NCBI RefSeq assembly: GCF_000599985.1
Contig: NZ_CP007445.1
Coordinates: forward strand, 496,001-560,000
DNA: 64,000 bases
Origin: Gilliamella apicola
Lineage (GTDB): Bacteria > Pseudomonadota > Gammaproteobacteria > Enterobacterales > Orbaceae
Direction: 5' to 3'
A program made the position numbers and the translations under genes. Under the pieces are notes generated by a model. That model searched no databases. It saw nothing but the letters and a program-made list of their open reading frames with translations, and was not told the DNA's origin. Positions 13,859-60,272 of this stretch are shown piece by piece (positions within the stretch are counted from its first letter, which is position 1; each line of letters opens with the position of its first letter).

Positions 13859-14025
13859 GTTTTATTATTTTTATTAACCTAATCTATTGGATTATTGTTT
13901 ATTTTTTTTATAATTGGCGAGTCCTTAATCTCTTTCTAATGTTAATAAAGTAAATTTTTATTTTGATCATAGTTCAATAAGTTAAATAAGATGAAAACTG
14001 GAAATAGAAAAGCGATTTAATTGAT

Positions 14026-14478
14026 ATGTATGATAAAACAAAATTTAGTATGCTCAATATTGATGATTTTTTTAGTTCAGAACAATATCAAACTATTGAA
14101 GATTTCAGCTATGCTGATGTCCAAGGAATACTAAAAGGTGGTTATCAAATTGAATTTTTTTATATTTTAGATCATGTTGAGGTATTATCAATTCAAGAAG
14201 TTATGGATAACACTTTTTTAATTGATAAAGCTAATCAAATTTTAAGTTACCTTGGTTTTGATTTTAAGATTGGTCACCCGTTTGAGTTAACTGATGAATT
14301 TAACCATAATTATAGATTTAAAGATGGTAGTTATAATAAAGATTATATGCTTTATTATTACGATTTTGAAGACATGTTAATTGTTCTAGGTATTACTTGG
14401 GAAGGCATTTTGAAATCATTTGAAATGGTTACTAATGAAACAATTATCAATAATCGTCTGGAGATTTTTACTACCTAA
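14026..14478 (+). CDS. Unknown 150-residue protein, copy 1
   Basis: Not recognised. An acidic, aromatic-rich protein without signal peptide or membrane span, starting MYDKTKFSMLNIDDFF. Aromatic clusters (FFYILD, LYYYDFEDM) and the near-C-terminal GITWEGILKSFEMVTNE suggest a compact alpha/beta fold. It is a paralogue of the gene at 16767-17219. The two are identical over the central FLIDKANQ to RFKD block (about 37 residues) but differ in a patch at residues 17-27 and another around 100-110, with two single-codon indels. Small acidic proteins with conserved frames and variable patches are often immunity or binding proteins, but nothing here proves that. It is convergent with the EIIA remnant, with a shared hairpin between them. 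Confidence 0.6.
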   Translation: MYDKTKFSMLNIDDFFSSEQYQTIEDFSYADVQGILKGGYQIEFFYILDHVEVLSIQEVMDNTFLIDKANQILSYLGFDFKIGHPFELTDEFNHNYRFKDGSYNKDYMLYYYDFEDMLIVLGITWEGILKSFEMVTNETIINNRLEIFTT

Positions 14479-14553
14479 TATTCTTCATATAGTTTAAAAA
14501 ATAACTGTTTTAACCGATTTAATTGATCAATCGTCAATCAGATGGAGATAACC

Positions 14554-14586
14554 TCCCATGAGTTTACATTATTTCTTCTCATGGGA
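14554..14586. terminator. Bidirectional hairpin, repeat copy 1
   Basis: Stem TCCCATGAG (14554-14562) with CTCATGGGA (14578-14586) and a 15-base loop. It lies between the convergent unknown gene and EIIA remnant. There is no strong T-run on either side, so it may be a weak terminator or an mRNA-stabilising stem. Confidence 0.55.
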
Positions 14587-14594
14587 TGATTATA

Positions 14595-14828
14595 TTAGTT
14601 TCCTTGAAGGATTGTTAATAGTTCTTCTGGTTTTTTAACTGATTGAATTCGCTCTATTGTATTTTCAGCAATAACCGCTCGCGTTAATTGCCGTAAAATA
14701 TCTAAATGTTCATTATTTTTAGCTGCTATACCGACTACCACATAAGCAATATTGTTATCTTCATCCCATTTTATGCCTTGCGGATAATATATTACTTTCA
14801 AACCAGTTTCAATTACACTATTTCGTTT
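14595..14828 (-). pseudogene. C-terminal fragment of PTS EIIA (duplicated remnant)
   Basis: This encodes the last 77 residues of the fructose-family EIIA found intact at 17336-17773. Over about 250 bases I count a single base difference from the parent (the Asn in GINWDED becomes Lys). Homology stops abruptly at 14828, so residues 1-68, including the phosphorylated His64, are absent and no initiator or ribosome site is present. A product could not carry out phosphotransfer. It is a by-product of the segmental duplication. Confidence 0.9.
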
Positions 14829-15122
14829 CTCTTATTATGTAGCCTTAAAACTATAACTAAAAAACGTTATAACTATTATGCAGTTACAAATATTATAGCA
14901 TACTGGCAATAAAAGTAATGATATGAATAATAATGTATATATTCATTAATATAATGAAAGTTTTTTAATAAATTAATGAGGATTATTTCTTAATTCTAGT
15001 TATGTTTAAAATGAATAGAATTACAAATTTATTAATGTAACAATCATTCATTATTGAAACCTTGTTTTAATTGATATTTTCAGCTATTGTAGTGTTAATT
15101 GTGACATCATTAGGATAATTTT
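14829..15122. other. AT-rich gap upstream of nrdR
   Basis: No coding frame with plausible content. It begins at the duplication breakpoint and ends with the nrdR leader. Promoter-like AT-rich sequence is abundant, but I cannot single out a -10/-35 pair. Confidence 0.5.
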
Positions 15123-15575
15123 ATGCACTGTCCGTTTTGTAATGCTGATGATACCAAGGTGATTGATTCACGTCTTGTTGGTGAGGGTTTTCAAGTTCGT
15201 CGTCGTCGACAATGTGTAGAATGCAATGAACGTTTTACTACATTTGAAGTTGCTGAATTAATTATGCCTAATGTTATCAAAAGTAATAAAATTCGTGAGC
15301 CGTTTAATGAAGATAAATTACGTAATGGTATAAAACGCGCATTAGAAAAGCGCCCAGTTGGTCTGGATGCGATTGAAGACGCAATTACGCGTATAAAATC
15401 AAAAATTAGAGCAACGGGTGAACGTGAAATACCAGCTAAACTTATCGGTAATTATGTTATTGAGGAACTAAAAGATTTAGATAAAGTTGCTTATATCCGT
15501 TTTGCTTCAGTCTATTTTAGTTTCCATGATATTGAGCAGTTTAGTAACGAAATTGCCAAATTACAACAAAAATAA
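15123..15575 (+). CDS. nrdR: Transcriptional repressor NrdR
   Basis: Zinc-ribbon/ATP-cone repressor of ribonucleotide reductase operons; 150 residues (E. coli 149). The N-terminal zinc ribbon uses C3, C6, C31 and C34 (MHCPFC and QCVEC) with the basic VRRRRQ stretch between. The ATP-cone follows (about 49-139: [16 protein letters not shown] onward), which senses ATP/dATP. It sits nine bases before ribD, the conserved enteric pairing, and is enclosed by the two long direct repeats. Confidence 0.98.
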
Positions 15576-15584
15576 ATACGTAAT

Positions 15585-16694
15585 ATGATTAGTGATAAAG
15601 ATCAATTTTATATGCAGCAAGCAATTGAGCTTGCTAAACTTGGACGCTTTACTACTCCTCCCAATCCCAATGTCGGTTGTGTTATTGTTAAAGATGATCA
15701 TATAATCGGCGAAGGTTATCATCAAAAAGCCGGTGAGCCTCATGCAGAAGTTTATGCGCTAATAATGGCTGGCAATAAGGCACAAGGAGCAACAGCTTAT
15801 GTGACATTAGAACCATGTAGTCATTTTGGTCGAACTCCTCCCTGTGCTGATGCATTGATAAAAGCAGGTATAACTCGTATTGTTGTTGCTATGCAAGACC
15901 CTAATCCCAGTGTTGCGGGTAATGGTATTAAACGATTAAGAGACGCAGGAATTGAAGTTATTGTTGGTGTTTTATATGAACAAGCTGAAGCCATTAATAA
16001 AGGTTTTTTAAAATGTATGCGCACAGGCATACCTTATGTCCAACTTAAACTCGCTTCTTCGTTAGATGGTAAAATTGCTATGGCATCAGGTGAAAGTAAA
16101 TGGATTACTTCAAGTACAGCAAGACAAGATGTACAACAATATCGAGCTCAAGCTAGTTGTATTTTAAGTACCCGAGCAACGGTTCAAGCTGATAATGCAA
16201 GTTTAACGGTTAGATATAACGAATTATCTAATGAGATTAGAAAAATCTATCCTCCAGAAAATATTCGACAACCTGTTCGCGTTATCATAGACAGTCAAAA
16301 TCGATTAACAGGGAATGAAAATATCTTCAGTCAATTAGGTGAAACATGGATCGTGCGTAAACAAAATATCCCAATTATTAAACCCAATACCAAGTTAATT
16401 ATTGAATCTTCAGATCAAAATTACATAGATCTAGTCGAATTATTAAAGGAATTAGGTAAAAATCAGATCAATTCTGTTTGGGTTGAAGCGGGAGCACATC
16501 TTGCTGGTGCGTTGATTGAACAAGATTTAGTTGATGAACTCATTATTTATTATGCGCCTAAATTGCTAGGTCATAATGCAAAAGATTTATGTGTATTACC
16601 TAATCTTAAAAAATTATCCTTAGCACCTCAATTTCAATTTGAATCCGTAAAAGCAATAGGTGATGATTTAAGGATTATTTTAAAAAGAAAGTAA
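15585..16694 (+). CDS. ribD: Bifunctional riboflavin deaminase/reductase
   Basis: Second and third steps of riboflavin synthesis: deamination, then NADPH-dependent reduction, of the pyrimidine intermediate. The 369 residues match the family. The N-terminal CDA-like domain shows the zinc motifs HAEVYAL and PCSHFGRTPPCADAL. The C-terminal reductase domain begins near YVQLKLASSLDGKIAMASG and ends with LAPQFQFESV. It is co-transcribed with nrdR. In E. coli ribH and nusB follow; here the operon stops and the repeated segment begins exactly at the ribD stop codon. No FMN riboswitch is visible upstream. Confidence 0.98.
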   Translation: MISDKDQFYMQQAIELAKLGRFTTPPNPNVGCVIVKDDHIIGEGYHQKAGEPHAEVYALIMAGNKAQGATAYVTLEPCSHFGRTPPCADALIKAGITRIVVAMQDPNPSVAGNGIKRLRDAGIEVIVGVLYEQAEAINKGFLKCMRTGIPYVQLKLASSLDGKIAMASGESKWITSSTARQDVQQYRAQASCILSTRATVQADNASLTVRYNELSNEIRKIYPPENIRQPVRVIIDSQNRLTGNENIFSQLGETWIVRKQNIPIIKPNTKLIIESSDQNYIDLVELLKELGKNQINSVWVEAGAHLAGALIEQDLVDELIIYYAPKLLGHNAKDLCVLPNLKKLSLAPQFQFESVKAIGDDLRIILKRK

Positions 16695-16766
16695 ATTTTT
16701 ATCTTGATCATAGTTCAATAAGTTAAATAAGATGAAAACTAGAAATAGAAAAGCGATTTAATTGAT

Positions 16767-17219
16767 ATGTATGATAAAACAAAATTTAGTATGCTCAATA
16801 TTGATGATTTTTTTTGTTCAAATCAATATAACACTTTTAAAGAAGATTTTAGTTACGCTGATGTCCAAGGCATAGGAAAAGGTGGTTATCAAATTCTATT
16901 TTTTTATATTTTAGATCGCGTTGAGGCATTATCAATTCAAGATATTATGGATGACGCTTTTTTAATTGATAAAGCTAATCAAATTTTAAGTTACCTTGGT
17001 TTTGATTTTAAGATTGGTCACCCGTTTGAGTTAACTGATGAATTTAATCATAACTATAGATTTAAAGATAGGTTTATGGGAGATCAGATACGTTATTATT
17101 ATGATTTTGAAGGAGTGTTAATTGTTCTAGGCATTACTTGGGAAGGCATTTTGGAATCATTTGAAATGGTTACCAATGAAACAATTATCAATAATCGTCT
17201 GGAGTTTTTTACTACCTAA
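16767..17219 (+). CDS. Unknown 150-residue protein, copy 2
   Basis: Paralogue of the product at 14026-14478; function not recognised. It has the same start (MYDKTKFSMLNIDDFF), the same GHPFELTDEFNHNYRFKD block and the same GITWEGIL end. Relative to copy 1 there are about 25 substitutions, one extra codon near residue 24 and one fewer near residue 102. Where copy 1 has GSYNKDYML, this copy has RFMGDQIR. Both frames are intact, so both copies are likely under selection. It lies 72 bases after ribD and converges on the PTS EIIA gene. Confidence 0.62.
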   Translation: MYDKTKFSMLNIDDFFCSNQYNTFKEDFSYADVQGIGKGGYQILFFYILDRVEALSIQDIMDDAFLIDKANQILSYLGFDFKIGHPFELTDEFNHNYRFKDRFMGDQIRYYYDFEGVLIVLGITWEGILESFEMVTNETIINNRLEFFTT

Positions 17220-17294
17220 TATTCTTCATATAGTTTAAAAACTAACTGTATTAACCGATTTAATTGATCAATCGTCAATAAGATGGAGATAACC

Positions 17295-17327
17295 TCCCAT
17301 GAGTTCACATCATTTCTTCTCATGGGA
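17295..17327. terminator. Bidirectional hairpin, repeat copy 2
   Basis: Same stem as at 14554-14586: TCCCATGAG (17295-17303) with CTCATGGGA (17319-17327). It lies between the convergent unknown gene and the EIIA gene that ends the minus-strand sugar operon. Confidence 0.55.
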
Positions 17328-17335
17328 TGATTATA

Positions 17336-17773
17336 TTAGTTTCCTTGAAGGATTGTTAATAGTTCTTCTGGTTTTTTAACTGATTGAATTCGCTCTATTG
17401 TATTTTCAGCAATAACCGCTCGCGTTAATTGCCGTAAAATATCTAAATGTTCATTATTTTTAGCTGCTATACCGACTACCACATAAGCAATATTGTTATC
17501 TTCATCCCAATTTATGCCTTGCGGATAATATATTACTTTCAAACCAGTTTCAATTACACTATTTCGTTTGTCTGTAGTGCCATGTGGAATAGCAATACCG
17601 TTACCCAAAAATGTGGAAATTTGTGCATCACGGTCAAACATGGCTTGAGTATAGTCATCTTTGACTAAACCAGATTTAATCATGTTTGCTGCTACAGCTT
17701 GAATTGCCTCTGATTTAGAATAACATCCATTAATGATTGAAATATCATCGACTGTTAGTTTTAAATTGCTCAT
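17336..17773 (-). CDS. PTS fructose-family EIIA component
   Basis: Cytoplasmic phosphocarrier that passes phosphate from HPr to the EIIB domain of the neighbouring EIIBC. The 145 residues form one EIIA-Fru/Mtl domain. The phosphorylated histidine is His64 in NGIAIPHGTTD, and the downstream YVVVGIAAKNNEHLDILRQL matches the conserved second half. It is the last gene of the minus-strand operon aldolase, kinase, EIIBC, EIIA, 45 bases after EIIBC, with AAGGAAAT as ribosome site. Its 3' half was duplicated to 14595-14828. Specificity follows the EIIBC partner, probably fructose or tagatose. Confidence 0.92.
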   Translation of the reverse strand: MSNLKLTVDDISIINGCYSKSEAIQAVAANMIKSGLVKDDYTQAMFDRDAQISTFLGNGIAIPHGTTDKRNSVIETGLKVIYYPQGINWDEDNNIAYVVVGIAAKNNEHLDILRQLTRAVIAENTIERIQSVKKPEELLTILQGN

Positions 17774-58200: not shown

Positions 58201-58935
58201 ATGAATATAAACAAATTTTCTAGCACACCACTTTACGTACAAGTGAAAGAGTGGATAAGAAATCAGATATATCGTAATGATTTGAAAGCTGGAGATAGAA
58301 TTCCTTCAGAAAATGAGATTATGAGCATACTTTCTGTTAGTCGAGGCACAGTTAGAAAAGCGGTTGAATTATTGATTAATGAATCTGTTTTAGAACAAAT
58401 TCAAGGAAAAGGAACTTATGTAAAAGCTGAAAATATCTCTTATCAATTAGGCTATGGTTTACAGTCATTTGCAGAATCGTTAGAGATGCAACATGTTAAG
58501 TTCACTACCGAAGTTATTACTAAAAGAGTTGAAAGAGCAAACGAATATATTAGTGGAAAATTACAAGTTCCAGTTAATTCGAACATTTTTTATATGGAAA
58601 GGGTAAGAAGCGTTAATGGCGAAAAAATTATGTTTATAGAAAATAGAATCAATTTGTCTTTATGTCCAGAAATAGAGCATGTGGATTTTACAAAATATAG
58701 TTTATTTAGTGAATTAGAGCGGATTACTCATAAAAAGATAGATCACTCGGATTGTCGATATTCAGCTCGAGTGGTTGGAAAAGAACGGGCAGATATATTA
58801 AATATTAGTGATATATCTCCAGTTCTTCATTTAGAACAATTAGTTTACTTTGATGACGGCCAACCAATTGAATTTGGTAATGTATGGTTAAAGTCAAATG
58901 TTAACTACTTGGGGACAACACTTAGACGAAAGTAG
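58201..58935 (+). CDS. GntR-family regulator, HutC subfamily
   Basis: Repressor of 244 residues. The N-terminal winged helix (about 5-75) shows TPLYVQVKEWIRNQIYRNDL, KAGDRIPSENEIMSILSVSRGTVRKA and QGKGTYV. The C-terminal UTRA effector domain (about 90-240) has YMERVRSVNGEKIMFIENRI and a typical LEQLVYFDDGQPIEFGNVW. HutC-type UTRA domains usually bind a phosphosugar or similar small ligand. First gene of the plus-strand operon that follows; the aldolase starts nine bases later. Confidence 0.93.
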   Translation: MNINKFSSTPLYVQVKEWIRNQIYRNDLKAGDRIPSENEIMSILSVSRGTVRKAVELLINESVLEQIQGKGTYVKAENISYQLGYGLQSFAESLEMQHVKFTTEVITKRVERANEYISGKLQVPVNSNIFYMERVRSVNGEKIMFIENRINLSLCPEIEHVDFTKYSLFSELERITHKKIDHSDCRYSARVVGKERADILNISDISPVLHLEQLVYFDDGQPIEFGNVWLKSNVNYLGTTLRRK

Positions 58936-58944
58936 GAGTAAATT

Positions 58945-59793
58945 ATGGCATTAGTCAATGGGTATACTTTAATAGGTGAAGCTAAAAAACAGAAAACTTT
59001 AGCTGGTGCATTTAATACAACAAATTTGGAAACAACATTAGCCATATTAGATGCAATTGAGGAAAGTAATATTCCAAGTATGGTTCAAATAGCACCAACA
59101 AATATTGTGTTATCTGGTTACAAATATATTGTAGATATGGTGCGTAATCGAGCTAGTACGATGAAAACACCATTTTGTTTACATTTAGATCATGGAAAAA
59201 CTTTTGAGGATGTAAGGCAAGCCGTTGAAGCTGGATTTACCTCAATTATGATTGATGGTTCTCATTTACCTTTTGAAGAAAATATTCAATTGACGAAAAA
59301 AGTTGTCGACTTTTGTGGTGGATATAATATCCCTGTAGAAGCTGAATTAGGGGCTATTACTGGAAAAGAAGATGATGAGGTTAATGAAGCGGATCGTAAA
59401 ACAGATCCTAATCAAGTCCTTGAGTTCGTGAAAAGAACTGGCTGTGCAACACTTGCCGTATCAGTTGGTAATGTTCATGGATTTGAACAACAACCGAAAA
59501 TTGATTTTGATTTACTGGGTAAATTATCTGATATATCGCCAGTCTCACTAGTTATTCATGGAGGTTCAGGAATTGATGATCAAACTTTACAAAAAATTAG
59601 TCAATATAATGTAGTCAAACTTAATATTGGTGGTGATTTGCGTAGAGCTTATATTAGTTCAATTGGTAAACAATATGTTGCTAATAATAATGAATATAAT
59701 CTTATTAAGGTTCTACTTAAAGCAAAAGGTGATGTTCAGCAAGTAGTTTACAACAAAATATTATCTATGAATTTATTAAACATCCATCATTAA
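58945..59793 (+). CDS. Class II ketose-bisphosphate aldolase
   Basis: Zinc aldolase of the FbaA/GatY/KbaY superfamily, 282 residues. LAGAFNTTNLET, HLDHGKTFEDV with the Asp/His catalytic-metal pair, SIMIDGSHLPFEENI, EAELGAI, VGNVHG and VIHGGSGI are present. The late phosphate-binding motif, NVATEL in GatY or NIDTDLR in many FBPs, reads KLNIGGDLRRAY, so the substrate may differ. About half-similar by eye to the GatY of this window. Probably cleaves the bisphosphate or phosphate ester produced downstream of the neighbouring PTS. Confidence 0.88.
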   Translation: MALVNGYTLIGEAKKQKTLAGAFNTTNLETTLAILDAIEESNIPSMVQIAPTNIVLSGYKYIVDMVRNRASTMKTPFCLHLDHGKTFEDVRQAVEAGFTSIMIDGSHLPFEENIQLTKKVVDFCGGYNIPVEAELGAITGKEDDEVNEADRKTDPNQVLEFVKRTGCATLAVSVGNVHGFEQQPKIDFDLLGKLSDISPVSLVIHGGSGIDDQTLQKISQYNVVKLNIGGDLRRAYISSIGKQYVANNNEYNLIKVLLKAKGDVQQVVYNKILSMNLLNIHH

Positions 59794-59813
59794 AATAAAA
59801 ATAGGCGGTCATT

Positions 59814-60272
59814 ATGGAATTAGAACAATTGGATGACAATATTATATTTTTAAACAAAAATTTTTCAAGTCGAGAAGATATGTTTAAATCTATAAGTCAT
59901 GAATTATTAGATAACAATTATGTGACTGAGCAATATTTAGAAAAAGTTATTCAAAGGGAAAACGAACATCCTACTGGATTTAAGTTGAAAACACTAAATG
60001 TTGCTATGCCTCATGTAGACTGCGAATTTGTTAAAAAAGATGGCATGTTTGTTGTAACCAGTAAAGAAGGCATTATTTTTAAAAATGCAGAGACTGATGA
60101 GGATCTACCCGTCAATATTATATTTGGATTGTTACTTAAACAATCCGATACACATTTAACTTTTTTAATGAAATTAGCATCATCGTTCAGCAATGACATG
60201 ATTTTGCAAAAGATAGTTGAAAGTAATAACAAATTTGAAATTAAAAATATTTTAAAAGATATTTTGAAATAA
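59814..60272 (+). CDS. PTS EIIA component, galactitol type (GatA-like)
   Basis: Cytoplasmic phosphocarrier, 152 residues. The active histidine is His67 in NVAMPHVDCE, as in GatA-type EIIA proteins. It lies 20 bases after the aldolase and 11 before the EIIB gene, with a GGCGGTC-containing leader. Delivers phosphate to the EIIB partner encoded next. Confidence 0.88.
   Translation: MELEQLDDNIIFLNKNFSSREDMFKSISHELLDNNYVTEQYLEKVIQRENEHPTGFKLKTLNVAMPHVDCEFVKKDGMFVVTSKEGIIFKNAETDEDLPVNIIFGLLLKQSDTHLTFLMKLASSFSNDMILQKIVESNNKFEIKNILKDILK

Follow-up and report, generated by a model that had tools for sequence, protein, structure and literature searches.

Mosaic alleles of X, a candidate orphan immunity gene exchanged between Gilliamella species and present in two copies in a Gilliamella apicola genome

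Described immunity systems and the X locus

EsaG, an immunity protein of the type VII system of Staphylococcus aureus, is described in the available part of PMC9484751 as containing conserved blocks that serve as crossover points among tandem immunity paralogues. Here we report on a small gene of Gilliamella apicola, which we call X, for which EsaG is the closest precedent. The genome is a single contig of 3,139,412 bases, and the window that we analysed, of 64,000 nucleotides, spans positions 496001-560000 and contains two copies of the gene, XA and XB. The alleles of X are mosaics produced by homologous recombination, and we consider that X is probably an orphan immunity protein, a reading to which we assign a probability of about 60%. 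As in the account of EsaG, conserved blocks alternate in X with variable segments, with recombination, and several non-identical copies can occur in one genome. X has no Pfam match of any kind and its likeness to EsaG lies in the block pattern, the two sequences not having been compared directly. On the other hand, in that part of the source EsaG copies lie in tandem behind their toxin gene and recombine among paralogues, whereas X is a solitary gene at a housekeeping site, with no toxin known for it, and passes from one species to another.

Two other described situations are comparable. Immunity genes that lack their toxins are reported in Gilliamella species, as is an exchange of Rhs toxin domains, presumably together with immunity genes, between Gilliamella and Snodgrassella (available parts of PMC8125069 and PMC5727410). 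X resembles these orphan Rhs immunity genes of bee gut bacteria in being found in Gilliamella without a toxin; however, in those accounts they were recognised because they resemble genes adjoining rhs toxins, whereas X, at ribD, is not beside a toxin and is not among the genes named in those parts. Immunity genes also accumulate, as X does, in the diverse immunity gene arrays of the Vibrio cholerae type VI secretion system (PMC5361080, with related work in PMC8189183, both in part), but the available text of PMC5361080 has these arrays arise at effector loci by displacement of the effector gene, whereas X diversifies by shuffling inside one remote gene. Recombination in G. apicola, involving 16S rRNA among others, has been reported as well (PMC4161309, in part). 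In the literature on Gilliamella immunity proteins and on orphan immunity with recombination, no title on the X gene was found; X differs from the described cases in standing by itself at a housekeeping site, in being shuffled across species and in having gained a second allele by insertion.

Divergence of the two copies, mosaic alleles and exchange between species

The two open reading frames (ORFs) listed by the initial annotation were confirmed: XA, allele A, at 14026..14478, and XB, allele B, at 16767..17219, both on the plus strand and of 150 codons. They belong to a duplicated segment revealed by self-comparison of the window, with copy A at about 13955-14828 and copy B at about 16696-17569. 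XA and XB differ by 41/450 substitutions and two 3-base indels (9.1%, or about 10.4% counting gapped positions), with synonymous and nonsynonymous divergence (dS and dN) of 0.129 and 0.090, respectively. By contrast, the dead EIIA 3' fragment of copy A differs from its parent at 2/236 positions, but the difference at 14829 concerns the junction base, which is part of the thrC-nrdR spacer, so that the true difference is 1/235; the 5' flanks differ at 2/71 and the 3' intergenic regions at 5/116. The excess in the gene is clear whether compared with the dead EIIA (Fisher p=3.5e-7) or with all duplicated non-gene DNA (8/422, Fisher p=2.4e-6). Thus, the patchy divergence beside a nearly identical dead flank, to which the initial annotation had drawn attention, is real. 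The variable patches were also found where they had been described, with 21/141 differences in codons 17-64 and 11/45 in codons 98-112, compared to 0/48 in codons 1-16, 2/99 in codons 65-97 and 7/117 in codons 113-150; a weaker variable patch, in codons 128-138, was observed among the alleles in addition. The block of 37 residues between the patches (14215..14325 in XA and 16959..17069 in XB, plus strand), said to be identical, is so at the protein level, but the DNA has 2 silent differences; it is a likely crossover zone.

The pairwise homoplasy index (PHI) test on 8 DNA alleles, with 48 informative sites, gave 328/1128 incompatible site pairs, and values as low were obtained in 0/5000 shuffles at k=3 and k=5, and in 1/5000 at k=10. 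At the protein level, 367/630 pairs were incompatible among 39 alleles (0/5000 shuffles); these were 39 of the 57 rows of the alignment, 36 of them distinct over the compared regions, with gaps treated as a state and 18 rows of less than 78% identity or fewer than 140 residues left aside. A small number of N- and C-terminal types recur in shuffled combinations among the protein alleles: one type of codons 36-64 is found with five types of codons 98-112, and the protein P0003 has the N half of XB followed by the variable C segment seen in XA. The observed switch points fall in or beside the conserved blocks.

To describe selection along the gene we pooled dN/dS over 28 allele pairs, which are not independent, the values being pairwise counts in the presence of recombination, with broken gaps in 3 codon columns. 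Codons 1-16 were invariant among the X alleles, and the ratio was 0.72 in codons 17-64, 0.12 in codons 65-97, 2.21 in codons 98-112, 0.29 in codons 113-127, 0.27 in codons 128-150 and 0.48 overall. In the other genes of the window the median ratio of nonsynonymous to synonymous differences per site (pN/pS) was 0.06-0.14, with single genes up to 0.29-0.75. The value for codons 98-112, set against that for codons 65-97, suggests, without proving it because the pairs are not independent, the diversifying selection that the initial annotation had offered as one explanation; a uniform neutral divergence of the homologues is instead contradicted by the data.

The other explanation offered there, import of variant alleles by recombination, was borne out by comparison with other species. 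XA has one base different from G012 over 427 bp (13985..14411, plus strand), which we read as a shared recombination tract, followed by 24 differences, one of them a gap, in 14412-14591, and the EIIA piece differs from G012 at 14/236 positions. XB has two bases different from G013 over 330 bp (16718..17047, plus strand), read in the same way, with 40/236 differences in EIIA, and one difference from a metagenome-assembled genome (MAG), G034, from 16954 to 17204. Moreover, XA differs from the distant species G014 at 7/336 positions in codons 1-112, compared to 39/236 in EIIA.

The silent divergence of the window genes from their orthologs in four genomes (G013, G014, G020 and G012, with 45, 43, 40 and 50 genes other than X; 5, 7, 10 and 0 of 52 genes, respectively, had no ortholog in the fetched stretches and were left out) places these tracts in context. 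Silent differences per silent site were 0.03 for XB and 0.11 for XA against G013, where the minimum of the other genes was 0.33; 0.18 and 0.13 against G014 (minimum 0.47); and 0.16 and 0.17 against G020 (minimum 0.43). In these three comparisons, each made with the one X of the species concerned, the two copies always take the lowest and second-lowest places, the median of the other genes being 0.58-0.59. Against the near species G012, XA is the lowest of all (0.04), and XB, at 0.14, is ordinary beside a median of 0.17 for the 50 others. Since X has the lowest silent divergence while that of the other genes stays high, X DNA has moved between Gilliamella species by homologous recombination, and the adjoining genes keep a species-level divergence. 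ribD is the next lowest after X against G013 and G020, which suggests that some exchanged tracts extend into it. Elsewhere in the window (58201-60272), three adjoining genes show a rather low silent divergence from G013 (0.39-0.50), and two of them also from G012 (0.05-0.06); perhaps this is another exchanged segment, or a case of strong codon constraint.

The original site of X and the insertion of copy A

In relatives the usual order is thrABC-nrdR-ribD-X-EIIA-fruA, with a single X. The gene lies directly behind ribD in 13 of the 17 Gilliamella genomes with a full-length X; in G033 the contig starts 48 bases upstream of X and EIIA comes next, and in G002, G006 and G023 the full-length gene is located elsewhere. 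X remnants were observed in five genomes (G005, G006, G019, G023 and G032), every one of them just behind ribD. Copy B therefore occupies the ancestral site, as X or its remnants mostly sit behind ribD in the relatives. Its 5' flank (16696..16766, plus strand, by alignment to copy A) begins directly past the stop of the upstream ORF, which we take to be ribD (15585..16694, plus strand). This ORF is preceded by a presumed nrdR (15123..15575, plus strand), and the intact parent of the dead fragment (17336..17773, minus strand) is presumably EIIA, a name that follows the initial annotation.

Copy A, instead, is a recent insertion of a segment made of X and the EIIA fragment between thrC and nrdR, with short overlaps at its ends. 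It comprises a 5' flank (13955..14025, plus strand, left junction at about 13944-13955), XA, a 3' intergenic region (14479..14594, plus strand) and the dead EIIA fragment (14595..14828, minus strand, right junction at about 14826-14832). The insert has replaced some 195 bp of the spacer between thrC and nrdR, which G012 (195) and G034 (192) retain, and the rest of the native spacer, which has no strand, follows at 14829..15122. The overlaps at the junctions are only about 4 and 7 bases, as would be expected of an illegitimate insertion. Apart from the junction base, no base is private to the dead EIIA piece, and the sole true difference is private to the parent, as judged against G012, G033 and G034; the insert is thus young and the difference between the X copies is unlikely to have accrued within it. 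The A/B divergence of X did not arise after the duplication, and the cell carries two X alleles owing to the insertion of copy A.

A separate duplication was observed in the MAG G034 (L036:1-2400), in which the end of X, EIIA and a piece of fruA run into a thrC fragment at about base 970; the contig starts within the first of the X copies and, being in a MAG, the duplication needs confirmation. We dropped the idea that copy A is a relic of a tandem duplication of this type, as the surrounding pieces of spacer fit an insertion and the fruA-thrC junction of G034 differs. EIIA or fruA beside X is missing, broken or replaced in G020, G013, G016 and G015 (L044, L045, L050 and L037, respectively), with X intact. 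An inverted repeat (CCCATGAG/CTCATGGG) in the 3' intergenic region of XA was spotted by eye, and the terminator scan made no call there; the promoter scan was uninformative, with 31 sites against 25.2 (sd 5.5) expected.

Function of X and competing explanations

Relatives of X in the databases are 42 at E<=0.001 in the search with XA, and 53 at E<=0.01 with an alignment. Among 35 Gilliamella genomes, some of them incomplete, a full-length X was found in 17, remnants only in 3 and no trace in 15; X was found in 0/9 genomes of other genera of the family and, besides the source genome, in 0/368 of a sample of the class. Two database proteins carry the label Snodgrassella alvi, a betaproteobacterium sharing the bee gut: P0028, of full length and 86% identity, and P0051, a 61-residue piece of the family; for both a contamination of the record is possible. 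A Pfam scan of 57/57 family members gave a best E of 0.17, to an unrelated family, while in NCBIfam XA reached 12.9 bits against a cut-off of 138 and XB had no match. The PADLOC anti-phage library gave no match among the 4 members scanned, a PDB sequence search reached a best E of only 0.61, and X was not found on plasmids or in 50,697 phage records, nor confirmed in any viral contig.

We read X as an immunity protein because it is small and acidic (D+E 26 against K+R 10 in XA, 25 against 12 in XB), because of its EsaG-like alternating blocks, and because its relatives away from ribD lie among immunity genes. There are three such full-length relatives, and their neighbours support the "immunity-like" label proposed at first. 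In G006 and G023 X has a common site beside an ORF of 549 residues, presumably pgi, bordering a cluster of small genes. This cluster includes SUKH_5 and pentapeptide repeats in G006; in G023 it extends to about 15 kb from X and has Imm-NTF2, an AHH nuclease domain with Imm11 after it, an RHS repeat and Imm22. Several of the genes match no family. SUKH matches are 7 in G006 and 6 in G023, one in each about 4.4 kb from X, and in G002 the sole Imm8 match in the genome lies some 150 bp from X. Moreover, four small genes of the G006 and G023 arrays are 84-90% identical to members of an array at 1.24-1.28 Mb of the G. apicola genome, in which Rhs toxin ends occur with small genes; the genome holds exactly two X copies, neither of them in that array. 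The array itself (G000:C1:1238001-1278000; L107 and L108), far from X, covers roughly 30-40 kb; its Rhs toxin ends are orphans, and behind many of them comes a small gene of the immunity type.

Several observations weigh against an immunity function. The remaining genes of the G006 and G023 arrays match the Rhs array of this genome weakly (31-60%) or not at all, the array relatives of X are 56-61% identical to XB and represent two independent sites only, and no RHS-repeat match was found in G006. No toxin gene was seen beside X at the ribD site in 14 genomes, by inspection, and X was not found in 15/35 Gilliamella genomes, some of them incomplete. X has no match to any immunity or defence family, although immunity families are incompletely catalogued, and fold matches are weak. 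The three relatives are in or at the edge of toxin/immunity clusters, but none of them is directly behind a toxin. The linked toxin that the initial annotation proposed to look for was not found at the ribD sites, at the array loci or in the genome's own Rhs array, and no cognate toxin could be assigned to X from these.

Among the other explanations, a plain duplication followed by divergence or neofunctionalisation of both copies in this lineage would account for two intact X copies in one genome, but we judge it extremely improbable: for long stretches each copy resembles other species more than its partner, no change is private to the dead flank, and the tracts and the silent divergence across the window contradict it. 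Hence the premise that the copies diverged after duplication, present in the initial annotation, is not needed. A related scenario has the flank recently homogenised by gene conversion between copies, X having diverged in place since an old duplication; the 1/235 difference of the EIIA fragment would agree with it, and G034 shows that the region duplicates, but the near-identity of XA and XB to alleles of two other species would still need explaining and the single-copy relative G012 has an undisturbed spacer at the insertion point, which makes it improbable. The flank is indeed recent, as that scenario supposes, but by copying and not by homogenisation as such, and it says little on the age of X.

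X could also be an ordinary accessory gene under weak constraint, its mosaic structure reflecting a high general recombination in Gilliamella. The recombination described in G. apicola (PMC4161309, in part), the absence or decay of X in 18/35 genomes and the high pN/pS of other window genes (maximum 0.75, against G013) speak for this, but the other genes are less exchanged, as seen from their silent minima (0.33 of 45, 0.47 of 43 and 0.43 of 40), and strongly conserved and strongly variable blocks alternate in X; we find it unlikely, though worth keeping in mind. Rather unlikely, in our opinion, is a role of X in defence or at the surface, with phages or the host selecting the variants and recombination spreading them likewise. 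Any fast-changing opponent would fit alleles that are mosaic and shared across species, and a variable patch whose pooled dN/dS exceeds 1, but the anti-phage library (4 members scanned) and the phage records gave no match, none was confirmed in viral contigs, the N-terminus looks cytoplasmic (by inspection only), and the array neighbours of the X relatives are toxin-immunity genes.

As an orphan immunity protein, X would be a stand-alone cytoplasmic protein, binding and blocking a single variant of a toxin that neighbouring bacteria deliver, a toxin of the Rhs or some other polymorphic type, and its specificity would depend on two or three variable segments that can be exchanged. The insert of copy A may have come from, or been later converted by, a strain with allele A, and may have been kept because two alleles cover two toxin variants. 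More tentatively, X could represent a single-locus, stand-alone allelic protection system. In it a cassette-like gene, with two or three specificity segments that are each exchangeable on their own, would occupy a fixed housekeeping site and have an allele pool common to Gilliamella species and Snodgrassella, and protection would be widened by a second allele through ectopic insertion, as in this genome, or tandem duplication, as in the MAG G034.

The description of X fills a gap for 53 database proteins of its family that have no Pfam family. If the proposal is true, X would offer a natural set of recombinant alleles, whose segments could be paired with variants of the toxin; the questions of where in an immunity protein its specificity is determined, and how it is traded between gut species, would be directly testable in the bee gut, which suits such tests as strains can be mixed at will.

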